From a virus, in the IMG/VR virus record IMGVR_UViG_3300030419_005459, positions 9,761 to 37,541 of that record: DNA of 27,781 nucleotides, one strand, 5' to 3'. Shown piece after piece: positions 4,920 through 10,717 of the stretch. Every line of letters begins with the position of its first letter. The first letter of the stretch is position 1. The position numbers were made by a program, and so were the translations under genes. Below the pieces are notes generated by a model. The model worked only from the letters and a program-made list of their open reading frames with translations, did no database searches and was not told the origin of the DNA.

Positions 4920-4943
4920 CCCATAGTAACATAAGTTCCATCT

Positions 4944-4982
4944 AAGGTATGGGTAGGCTCTAGGGCTTACCCATACCTTTTT
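4944..4982 (+). terminator. Intrinsic terminator after the SSB-like gene
   Basis: AAGGTATGGGTA (4944-4955) pairs perfectly with TACCCATACCTT (4968-4979) around a 12-nt loop, and the stem runs into five T residues (4978-4982). A 12-bp perfect stem plus T tract is a textbook rightward terminator. It would end the first early transcript, or be read through in part to reach the methyltransferase gene 17 bp later. Confidence 0.9.
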
Positions 4983-4998
4983 ATAAGGATTATCAAAT

Positions 4999-6750: not shown

Positions 6751-9075
6751 ATGGTACAACCAGAAGGACACGAAAAAGCAGAGATAGTAATACTAGGCGA
6801 ATCACCATCCAAAAATGACGTAATAGCGGGTTACCCATTCGCAGGATCTCAAGGGGAGATGTTATTCGATGACATACTAGCCCGAGCAGGTATCTTCCGT
6901 AAGGACTGCTTAGTAATGTATGTGTATCCTAAACAAGCTCCGGCAAACAAGCTCGAGGTATTAAATGATCCTTTCGAGTTCGCAGAAGATAACTGGAAAC
7001 TCATACAAAAGCACCCACGTAAATTAATAATCGCAGTAGGAGAGTACGCACTAAAGTTCCTATGTGCCGAATCAGGCATCACAAAGTGGCGTGGATCATT
7101 ATTGTTTTCTAACAGAGGAAAAATCCCTGTTATTCCTATGATCGCGCCCATAGCAGTAATACGACAATACTCATGGTTAGTGTTATGTCGTAAGGATGCC
7201 AAGAAGGCCGCGAGAGTAATAACAGACTATGACTCAATCCTAGACCATAAGCGAAACATAGTACACTATGGCCAACTCAAGAAAGAACACGCAACAGAAG
7301 AATCTGGCCTCATAACTAAGCTTCTCATAGCAGCTCTTGAGTCGTACCACGATGCCCCATGTCTGGCATTTGATATTGAAACATACGCAGAATGCATAAC
7401 TTGTGTCGGAGTAGCAAGGTCAGAAACCGAAGCTGTCGTAATACCCTTTACATCCCAGCTTCGTCACGAACATCGCATAGAACTCATACGAGCTTTAGGT
7501 AAACTACTTAGTAATAATTCCCTAAAAGTAGGCCAGAATCTAGACTATGATACTCAGTATCTAGCCAAGAAATTCGGCATCAAGGTTCGTAATGTATGGA
7601 TGGACACAATGGTAGCGCATTCAGTAATGCATCCAGAGATGGGTCATAGTTTAGATCTCTTAGCATCCATATACACAAACAAGAATTTCTACAAAGAGAT
7701 GCGTAAAGAAGCTACCAGTGGTAATTATAACAATACCTTATGGGAATACAATGGTATTGATTGTTGTGTCACATACGAAGTAGCCGTAAAACTAGCCCAT
7801 GAGCTAATAGAAACAAAAGCCTGGGAGTTCTTTCATTCTGTAGCTATGCCAGTCACGAAGACCCTAATCCGCATGGAGCATAAAGGAGTAAATATAGATG
7901 AAGATCTTAGGGCGCAACGCAAAAAAATGCTCTCTAGCGAAGTGGATAATATTCTTGCCGATGATGCTCTGTGCGGGGTTAATCCTAATAGTCCTAAACA
8001 AGTACTGGACTATTTCGAGTCCAGAGGAATACGACTTCCAGTAGCCCGTGGCCGTAAGACAGCATCTACAGATGTACACACACTAAAACTACTTAGACCC
8101 AGGCAACCTAAGCACGCGGAGTTCATAGATAAGTGTCTTGCAGTTCGTGATAGACGTAAAATCATAGGAACATACTTAGAAGCTAAGATCCATACTGACG
8201 GTAGAATGCGTACATCATACAGAACCTCAGCAACAGACACAGGCAGGATCTCGAGCTCGAAAGACGTATTTAATAAAGGCATGAATCTTCAGAATGTCCC
8301 AGGAGATCAACGAGATTGGTTTGTGCCAGATCCAGACCTAGTGTTCTGGGAAGCTGACGGTTCACAAATCGAAGCCAGAATCACAGCTTATGTAGCTAAC
8401 GACCACAACTACATGCAAGGGTTCAAAGAAGGTCGTGATATTCATACTGAAAACGCAATGGCTTTGTTTAGAATCCCTGAATCTCAAGTACGAGACATTG
8501 TAGAAGGAACTCATTATTCATATCGTGACATAGGCAAACGTGCATCTCACGCGATTAATTACATGGTAGGTCCAGGCAAACTCAAGGACTTAATGAATGA
8601 GTATGTACCTACTATGACATTCACACTTAATGATGCTCGTAGGTTCATCGATAGCTTCAAAACGCTCAGGCCAGGCATACATAAGTGGTGGATTAACACA
8701 ATCCAACATCTTAAGTCTGATCGAATTATGCGTACTCCCTATGGTCGTCAAAGGATATTTCTAGATCGTTGGGGTGATCAATTACATCGAGCCGCTGTAG
8801 CATTTGTGCCTCAGTCTACAGCAGCAGATCACATTAATGCATCGCTTGCGCGTATAGAAGCTCGCTTAGATTCTATACCTGAAGCATCTGTATTGCTTCA
8901 GGTGCATGACTCTGTGGCAGGGCAGTGTAGGGTGGGGGATCTAGATCAAGTTAAAGCTATAGTTTGCGAAGAAATGGAGAAACCAATTCCCACAGGTTTT
9001 GGGTATTATTGGGAAGGCGAGTTAATAATACCCGCGGACTTCGCATCTGGACCTAACTGGAAAGCATGTAAGTAG
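6751..9075 (+). CDS. Uracil-DNA glycosylase-like domain fused to family A DNA polymerase, 774 aa
   Basis: Residues 10-160 follow the family 4 uracil glycosylase pattern (LGESPS at 15-20, GYPFAGSQG at 27-35, APANK, KWRGSLLF), but the iron-sulfur cysteines and the active-site His motif are missing (MIAPIAVIR has Ala132 where His is usual). A 3'-5' exonuclease domain follows: FDIETYAE with Asp208 and Glu210, QNLDYDTQYL, and YNGIDCCVTYEV. The polymerase domain has motif A ADGSQIEAR (Asp536), motif B RDIGKRASHAINY (592-604) and motif C LQVHDS (Asp720). Motif C ends in Ser where Glu is normal. Aligning R592 and K596 with E. coli Pol I R754 and K758 puts His600 at position 762. This is the replicative polymerase; the glycosylase part may only bind uracil. 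Confidence 0.9.
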   Translation: MVQPEGHEKAEIVILGESPSKNDVIAGYPFAGSQGEMLFDDILARAGIFRKDCLVMYVYPKQAPANKLEVLNDPFEFAEDNWKLIQKHPRKLIIAVGEYALKFLCAESGITKWRGSLLFSNRGKIPVIPMIAPIAVIRQYSWLVLCRKDAKKAARVITDYDSILDHKRNIVHYGQLKKEHATEESGLITKLLIAALESYHDAPCLAFDIETYAECITCVGVARSETEAVVIPFTSQLRHEHRIELIRALGKLLSNNSLKVGQNLDYDTQYLAKKFGIKVRNVWMDTMVAHSVMHPEMGHSLDLLASIYTNKNFYKEMRKEATSGNYNNTLWEYNGIDCCVTYEVAVKLAHELIETKAWEFFHSVAMPVTKTLIRMEHKGVNIDEDLRAQRKKMLSSEVDNILADDALCGVNPNSPKQVLDYFESRGIRLPVARGRKTASTDVHTLKLLRPRQPKHAEFIDKCLAVRDRRKIIGTYLEAKIHTDGRMRTSYRTSATDTGRISSSKDVFNKGMNLQNVPGDQRDWFVPDPDLVFWEADGSQIEARITAYVANDHNYMQGFKEGRDIHTENAMALFRIPESQVRDIVEGTHYSYRDIGKRASHAINYMVGPGKLKDLMNEYVPTMTFTLNDARRFIDSFKTLRPGIHKWWINTIQHLKSDRIMRTPYGRQRIFLDRWGDQLHRAAVAFVPQSTAADHINASLARIEARLDSIPEASVLLQVHDSVAGQCRVGDLDQVKAIVCEEMEKPIPTGFGYYWEGELIIPADFASGPNWKACK

Positions 9076-9084
9076 TATTAATAT

Positions 9085-9203
9085 AGCCAAGAGAGGATTA
9101 GAGTCTGGGGAGTCTCTAGCTTGTGTGTCCTATATGCCTCTGGAAAGACCAGAGTGCCCACAAGCCTGTAGAACTGGGGAGAACTGCAGTTCCTCTCTTG
9201 GCT
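9085..9203 (+). ncRNA. Four-way-junction structured RNA (novel candidate)
   Basis: A closing stem of 13 perfect pairs joins AGCCAAGAGAGGA (9085-9097) to TCCTCTCTTGGCT (9191-9203). Inside are three hairpins with almost no unpaired bases between them: P2 TAGAG/CTCTA (9099-9103 with 9114-9118), P3 GCTTGTG/CACAAGC (9119-9125 with 9159-9165) topped by CTCTGG/CCAGAG (9138-9143 with 9149-9154), and P4 CTGTAG/CTGCAG (9166-9171 with 9184-9189, one G-U pair). The loops of P2 and P4 both contain CTGGGGAG. The ribosome binding site AAGGAG (9208-9213) of the next gene follows at once. It could be a cis-regulator (riboswitch-like or protein-binding) or a processed small RNA. It is not a tRNA, and no family I know fits. 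Confidence 0.75.
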
Positions 9204-9219
9204 TCACAAGGAGTAAGTT

Positions 9220-9432
9220 ATGCATATTCACATTAAAAACTCTGTAGCTGATAATATGTCCGTGTATGAAAGCGATAGCGACGACAGTATCGTAATAGCA
9301 GTCCTAGACGATAGTATCGTTACTGCAATAGTCTTAGACATCGCGGCAGAATCTGCTCTTAAGCTATATAACGAATTAGGCTCCAAGCTCAATGTCACTC
9401 AGGCCGAGGTTATAGAGATGCCTAAGTCCTAG
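9220..9432 (+). CDS. Hypothetical acidic protein downstream of the structured RNA, 70 aa
   Basis: ATG 9220 follows AAGGAG at six bases. The product is acidic (a run of Ser and Asp near residues 15-23) with strands SIVIAVLDD and SIVTAIVLDI, then a helix AAESALKLYNELGSKLNV. No family is recognised. If the RNA just upstream is a cis-regulator, this gene and the ATPase 16 bp after it are what it controls. Confidence 0.7.
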   Translation: MHIHIKNSVADNMSVYESDSDDSIVIAVLDDSIVTAIVLDIAAESALKLYNELGSKLNVTQAEVIEMPKS

Positions 9433-9448
9433 CCATGAAGGGATCGAG

Positions 9449-10717
9449 ATGCTCGATGAATCCTCTTTAGGGCCAGAAAAGGAATACCGAAATGATTTTA
9501 TTAGTCTATACCTCGATTATACCAAAGGTCAAGAATCGCCTAGGGATTTCCATTTCTGGACAGCAGTAAGTCTGCTGAGTGGAGCCGTAGGCAGAAAAGT
9601 CTGGCTTCCTCGCGGACACGATAGACTTTACCCGAACCACTATGTGATACTTGTGGCAGGTTCAGCTATGAGCCGTAAGAGTAGTGCAATAAACATAGGG
9701 GTAGGATTACTTAGACGAGCAACGCAAAACAAAATAGATTCAGGCTTGACTCAAGGACTCAGCACAATACTCTCAGGTAAGATGACTCCAGAAGCATTGT
9801 GCAGAGCTATATCGTCCAGGGGTCTTGAAGGTATGCTAGAATCCGACACAACACCAGTGGTAACAGACCGCACATCACGCCCATGTTATTTATTTAGTTC
9901 TGAACTAGGAGTGTTTTTATCGAAAGCCGCGCAGTCGAATGGTCTAGTGGATTTACTTATAGACTGGTACGACTGTCCAGACGTATTTGAATACATAACT
10001 AAAACATCAGGATCAGATTATGTCTATGAAGTCTACGTATCGTTACTCAGTGCGACGACTCCAGACTGGATCGCTCAAAATGTCACGTCTTCCGTATTCA
10101 ACCAAGGTTTTGTGGGCCGTGTTATATTTGTCCACTCTGAGCGGTCTAATGTTAGGATTGCGCATCCTGTGGTGGATAGCGTCTTAGAAAAACTCCGCGA
10201 TAGACTAGTGAATCATCTAGAACATCGCATGGGCATGGAAGGAGAGATGCAACTTACACAAGACGCATGGGATTATTTTGAGTCTTGGTATAACTCACGA
10301 ATAGAAAGCGAAACACTAGACAACGTACAAAGCGGGTTCTTTGGCCGTGAGCATACTCACGTACTAAAACTCGCTATGACATTTTCGATAGCTCGTAGAC
10401 GCACATTAGTAATCCACAAATGTGATATCCACGATGCTATAGAAAAAATAAGCCATACGTTCGAAGGATTAAACTCTATATTCAAGGAGGTCAAATACGC
10501 CAACGAGATCTTTGAAACTAAAATCGTAGAAGGCGTAATAAAAGACGCAAGGAAAATAGATCGCACAACACTCTTAAAAGCAGTTTATCGTAAGATGAAC
10601 AAAGATAAACTAGACGAGTGTTTGAGCATACTTAAAGCAGCAGGAGTAATTGACGAGGAAGTTAAAGCGAAGAAAGGTGGCGGAAGGTCTAAAGTCACCT
10701 ACATCTCAAAACAATAA
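9449..10717 (+). CDS. DUF3987-type P-loop ATPase, probable replication helicase, 422 aa
   Basis: After an N-terminal segment (FISLYLDYTKGQESPRDFHF) comes VILVAGSAMSRKSSAI, a Walker A in which the usual final Gly is Arg (G71-x4-R76-K77-S78), as in DUF3987-like phage proteins with G-x-x-x-x-R-K-S. Further family signs are YLFSSELGVFL, LIDWYDCPDVFEY, LLSATTPDWI and GFVGRVIFVHSE, with the arginine-finger-like FVGR. The last 80 residues look like a winged helix (RTTLLKAVYRKMNKDKLDECLSIL) ending in a basic tail. Such proteins lie beside phage DNA polymerases and act in helicase or primase steps. No separate DnaB-type helicase is present in this window. Confidence 0.75.
   Translation: MLDESSLGPEKEYRNDFISLYLDYTKGQESPRDFHFWTAVSLLSGAVGRKVWLPRGHDRLYPNHYVILVAGSAMSRKSSAINIGVGLLRRATQNKIDSGLTQGLSTILSGKMTPEALCRAISSRGLEGMLESDTTPVVTDRTSRPCYLFSSELGVFLSKAAQSNGLVDLLIDWYDCPDVFEYITKTSGSDYVYEVYVSLLSATTPDWIAQNVTSSVFNQGFVGRVIFVHSERSNVRIAHPVVDSVLEKLRDRLVNHLEHRMGMEGEMQLTQDAWDYFESWYNSRIESETLDNVQSGFFGREHTHVLKLAMTFSIARRRTLVIHKCDIHDAIEKISHTFEGLNSIFKEVKYANEIFETKIVEGVIKDARKIDRTTLLKAVYRKMNKDKLDECLSILKAAGVIDEEVKAKKGGGRSKVTYISKQ

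Follow-up and report, generated by a model that had tools for sequence, protein, structure and literature searches.

The DNA analysed here, referred to as the window, is a stretch of 27,781 nucleotides (positions 9,761 to 37,541 of IMG/VR virus record IMGVR_UViG_3300030419_005459). Matches to a P22-like portal (at the cut-off) and to a terminase suggest that it may derive from a podovirus-like phage, and from the IMG sample type we take the phages concerned to be probably marine. On the + strand, a family A DNA polymerase is followed by a 70-aa open reading frame (ORF) and a DUF3987 primase/helicase-like gene, all presumably early genes, judging from replication functions. Polymerase relatives in genome contigs are distant (26-30% identity) and come from MAGs of many phyla. 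The 70-aa ORF has neither a PHROG match nor a Pfam match above threshold; its product is acidic, begins MHIHIK and gives a structure model of low confidence (pLDDT 56). Between the polymerase and this ORF lies a structured RNA, which had been described from the sequence as standing before an early operon; it sits within the early gene block rather than ahead of it. The features of the region, in window coordinates, are as follows.

6751..9075, + strand: family A DNA polymerase, the upstream gene (PHROG 17, E 3.6e-101); its stop lies 9 nt before P1
9085..9097, + strand: 5' strand of the closing stem P1, AGCCAAGAGAGGA, purine-rich; pairs with 9191-9203, with compensatory changes in relatives
9098..9098, + strand: junction U, opposite U9190 here; a U-A pair takes its place in L004-L007
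9099..9118, + strand: P2 hairpin, the first arm; missing from the three-way forms L008 and L009
9105..9112, + strand: CUGGGGAG in the loop of P2, the first of the two G-run motifs; 11/11 copies have a run of 3-5 unpaired G in their first arm
9119..9165, + strand: P3 arm, with lower stem 9119-9125/9159-9165 and bulge 9126-9137; covariation in both of its stems
9138..9154, + strand: apical part of P3, with stem 9138-9143/9149-9154 and loop 9144-9148
9166..9189, + strand: P4 hairpin, the last arm
9174..9181, + strand: CUGGGGAG in the loop of P4, the second of the two G-run motifs; 11/11 copies have a run of 3-5 unpaired G in their last arm
9191..9203, + strand: 3' strand of P1, UCCUCUCUUGGCU
9208..9213, + strand: Shine-Dalgarno sequence AAGGAG of the next ORF
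9220..9432, + strand: 70-aa ORF, the downstream gene, with its AUG at 9220; lacks a family match and is present in 10/10 copies at the polymerase site
9449..10717, + strand: DUF3987 primase/helicase-like gene, next in the block (Pfam PF13148, E 5.4e-15; PHROG 14296)

A base-by-base check of the coordinates confirms the four-way junction drawn in the sequence-only reading. On the + strand, a 13-bp P1 and the arms P2, P3 and P4 occupy 9085-9203, U9098 and U9190 are left unpaired at the junction, and P2/P3 and P3/P4 abut without a gap. P3 is interrupted, however, by a bulge of 12 nt in its 5' strand (9126-9137) and is therefore not paired throughout. The predicted minimum free energy is -55.9 kcal/mol, compared with -38.3 +/- 4.0 for shuffled sequences (z = -4.4; none of 200 shuffles is as good). 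Several coding windows of the same genome reach z near -4.5, so the fold of a single sequence is only suggestive, and we rejected folding energy as proof of structure.

The decisive evidence comes from relatives. A polymerase search of the collections, which are fragmentary, yielded ten sequences that include the downstream spacer (the window and L001-L009), and in 10/10 the RNA lies between the polymerase stop and the 70-aa ORF. L001-L007 share the four-way plan of the window. L008 and L009 have three arms; their first G-run is found in the first arm that is left, where it forms a bulge on the 5' side. In alignment A16, comprising nine sequences, compensatory changes affect both sides of 25 of the 34 pairs (15.8 in shuffles, with 0/500 reaching 25) and 96.1% of the cells pair. 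The covariation score is 0.712, against 0.365 when shuffled and at most 0.24 when the partners are slid. The covariation extends to all five helices, and RNAalifold independently predicts 38 pairs, 28 of them with two-sided changes. These statistics ignore kinship and stem from a small sample (about 11 copies, falling into two main sequence groups, L046 and the three-way forms); changes inside the first sequence group are also compensated. Aligned by hand, the ten copies from the polymerase spacer together contain 231 Watson-Crick, 20 G-U, 4 U-U and no A-C pairs. This assigns the RNA to the + strand, because the G-U pairs would read as A-C on the opposite strand, and it likewise disfavours a function as DNA. 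The claim of a structured RNA has thus stood the covariation check on related contigs, with compensatory changes in every stem, and it is settled by this covariation and not by folding energy. The RNA at 9085-9203 is a real folded molecule, evolutionarily kept in at least 11 related phages.

Among the copies, the RNA ranges from 83 to 125 nt, and it nearly fills the polymerase spacer whatever its length. In the ten polymerase-spacer copies, 1-9 nt separate the polymerase stop from P1 and 13-16 nt separate the end of P1 from the AUG, with the gap between P1 and AGGA fixed at 3-5 nt. Subtracting the RNA leaves a spacer of 14-25 nt. This is near the length of the whole spacer where the RNA is lacking, about 21-32 nt as taken from the annotation of GenBank relatives (~29% polymerase identity by tblastn), in which the polymerase is followed by a DUF3987-type gene or a short ORF. 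Given this likeness in length, we treat the RNA as an insert within a normal gene boundary. Tight spacing is not general, since the distance from RNA to AUG is 24 nt in L046 and 19 nt in L038. The geometry requires neither a four-way junction nor G-runs and therefore leaves the most conserved feature unexplained.

That feature is a pair of exposed G-runs. The twin CUGGGGAG loops singled out from the sequence do represent two matching exposed loops under selection, but the exact CUGGGGAG twin occurs only in the window, and so the family is better defined by the G-runs than by CUGGGGAG itself. Each copy has two unpaired G-runs, one in the first arm and one in the last, with at least GGG in 22/22 loops of the 11 copies (range GGG to GGGGG); the P3 loop has a G-run in 0/11 copies. 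GGA is present in 20/22 G-run loops, GGAG in 17/22 and A-N-GGA in 1/22. The stems vary freely and the G-run loops are constant. An extra G-run hairpin at record position 9338 falls within an open frame and was taken as chance.

A covariance model built from four sequences was used to find further copies. The eleventh, in L046 (99.8 bits), occupies another spacer, the one that separates a 160-aa ORF from a ParB/methyltransferase gene, on the same strand and again just 5' of a ribosome-binding site; the 70-aa ORF is absent from L046. A match in L218, with an R2 model score equal to that of the L046 copy, overlaps the end of the 160-aa ORF that also precedes the RNA in L046. L218 was added by a DNA pattern scan of IMG/VR, which also returned six matches with different folds. 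R2 was run on about 1.5 Mb of loci, most of them chosen because their polymerase, methyltransferase or primase is related, the others contributed by the DNA pattern; its matches are confined to this phage group, and a search for DNA similarity in GenBank phages and plasmids returned none. With the four-sequence model, the L046 copy at 99.8 bits is nearer the window group than are L004-L007 (49-58 bits), an order with which the gap-inclusive RNA identities agree, whereas polymerase identity is 59-60% for L046 and 84-85% for L004-L007. Because the RNA of L046 is closer to that of the window while its polymerase is more distant, the comparison suggests that the RNA may have been transferred between lineages and sites. 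The second site also weakens the proposed specific link to regulation of the gene at 9220, since in L046 and L218 the RNA follows the 160-aa ORF in another spacer.

Other structured spacers occur in these phages. Stable hairpins are found in the methyltransferase spacer of all relatives read. In the window, the spacer that leads from the 160-aa ORF to the methyltransferase gene (4920-4998) has a strong hairpin and UUUUU, followed directly by a Shine-Dalgarno sequence, leaving little room for a promoter. Several relatives have a large multi-arm RNA inside this spacer, some with predicted GGGAG loops. Phages of the L001 type (L141, 4792-5001; L142, 4794-5001) carry a multi-arm RNA of ~190 nt with a terminator-like closing stem. 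A third type of methyltransferase-spacer RNA occurs in L157 (4850-4985), L159 and L162, whose near-identical sequences contain CUAGGGAGG and are predicted to form a long P1 and a hairpin that includes (U)UGGGGAG. Finally, L038-L041, L045 and L046 (~59-60% polymerase identity) have a different, unrelated-looking spacer of ~145 nt 3' of the polymerase. It is conserved in L038 (6299-6443), L040 (6299-6443) and L046 (6299-6442), where it contains two copies of a CCUUGUUGGU-like sequence and one of CAUCAACAACG, and it shows weak structural covariation in four sequences.

As the most likely reading, we propose, tentatively and with a probability of about 0.4, that this new structured-RNA family acts in cis as an intercistronic module of early phage mRNA and that a two-site factor docks on its G-run arms. 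From gene order and strand, the RNA would be co-transcribed with the early genes. Closing stem P1 would fold about 120 nt aside, and the polymerase stop and the next ribosome-binding site would thereby be kept about as close as in RNA-less relatives. The two G-run arms flanking P1 may then bind one dimeric or two-site factor, of phage or host origin, and the bound factor would control processing, stability or translation at the gene boundary. The L046 copy fits this proposal, lying in another spacer of the same block, on the same strand and 5' of a ribosome-binding site.

Alternatively, the G-runs might be used by an RNA that acts in trans. A phage small RNA cut from the early transcript, its two G-run loops capturing an RNA-binding protein of host or phage, or a C-rich RNA, in a decoy or guide role, is a serious rival to the cis-acting module, although we lean towards considering it unlikely. 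Its fold is self-contained, its loops stay constant as the stems change, and its position is seemingly unimportant, because the L046 and L218 copies sit in a different spacer beside other genes. In L046, P1 also runs into a U-tract, like the 3' end of a terminated RNA. No such tract follows P1 in the ten polymerase-spacer copies, however, which also speaks against an intrinsic terminator there; none of the candidates of a promoter scan falls between the end of the polymerase gene and P1, the next AUG follows at an unusually constant distance, and a CsrA-type decoy is not favoured by the loop sequences. A different reading, which we think improbable and offer as speculation, is a new class of phage regulatory RNA, mobile among the spacers of the early block, in which the two invariant G-run arms flanking P1 capture a dimeric host or phage protein, or self-associate through four G-runs, while the stems are free to change.

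Two further proposals concern the neighbouring genes more directly. If the RNA were a translational switch acting in cis on the gene at 9220, a protein or ligand would decide between P1 and pairing of the P1 3' strand with the Shine-Dalgarno sequence. The P1 5' strand does resemble a Shine-Dalgarno sequence, the pyrimidine-rich 3' strand is predicted to pair with AAGGAG in the window, L001, L003, L007 and L008 (5 of the 8 post-polymerase copies examined), and both the fixed P1-AGGA distance and the constant presence of the 70-aa ORF at the polymerase site would suit such a switch. For L004-L006 and L009, however, the prediction of this pairing is not clear; the length and stability of P1 also speak against a switch, as does the L046 RNA, which precedes another gene. 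Another alternative pairing, GAACTG 9171-9176 with CAGTTC 9187-9192, had been put forward as a switch, but is restricted to the window, with the complement absent in L001, L003 and L046. We consider a switch at 9220 doubtful on these grounds. Much less probable, and rejected on architecture and position, is a processive antitermination RNA acting on RNA polymerase at terminators of the early block, after the manner of the put RNAs of phage HK022. There, antitermination is purely RNA-based (PMC9378689) and acts via the beta' zinc-binding domain of RNA polymerase. As in HK022, the structured RNA is phage-encoded and would belong to early transcripts, and terminator-like hairpins with U-runs do occur in the spacer before the methyltransferase gene. 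However, put RNAs are about 70 nt long with two stem-loops and lie just 3' of early promoters or ~270 nt away (PMC9378689), whereas the present RNA has 83-125 nt and three or four arms and is found in the middle or late in its gene block. At the polymerase site it is 3' of the terminator-like hairpin, with only three + strand genes remaining before convergent genes.

The catalogue of structured phage RNAs is poor, and few of its members have comparable covariation from so few genomes. The clear plan, the two contact points that never vary, the three-way variant marking one arm as dispensable and a second genomic site together make partner and function testable with short synthetic RNAs, a route that needs neither phage nor host. 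If the G-runs bind a host regulator, they would represent a new, RNA-based way for a phage to steer its host.

Comparison with known systems bears out the earlier impression that the RNA belongs to no known family. Against Rfam release 15 (4227 models), the window, L009, L007, L126 and L127 gave no match at the gathering threshold, and a relaxed search of four members gave matches far below threshold or none. To illustrate, L009 scores 17.9 bits against RF03084 (DUF2815 RNA), below the gathering score of 41.2, and is thus not a member; RF03084 is a model of 62 positions, and the four-way plan with twin G-run arms is unmatched by Rfam models. ARAGORN finds neither tRNA nor tmRNA in the window. 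CsrA/RsmA sites and decoys are alike in presenting two G-rich motifs in hairpin loops that suit a dimeric protein. CsrA sites, though, need A-N-GGA (an ANGGAN loop), and ACA and GGA were fully conserved in SELEX (PMC7652899). Here a CsrA decoy fails the sequence test, with A-N-GGA in a single loop of the 22 and GGA missing from two. A role as substrate of a T4 RegB-like RNase, an enzyme specific for GGAG, was also considered and set aside, although most of the G-run loops contain GGAG. The intercistronic RNase III sites of T7 early mRNA are similar in placing a stable stem between early genes, 5' of a ribosome-binding site, although conserved twin G-run arms or a four-way junction are not known there. 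A likeness is also seen to orphan phage intergenic RNAs such as the DUF2815 RNA, which combine a conserved fold between phage genes with an orphan function.
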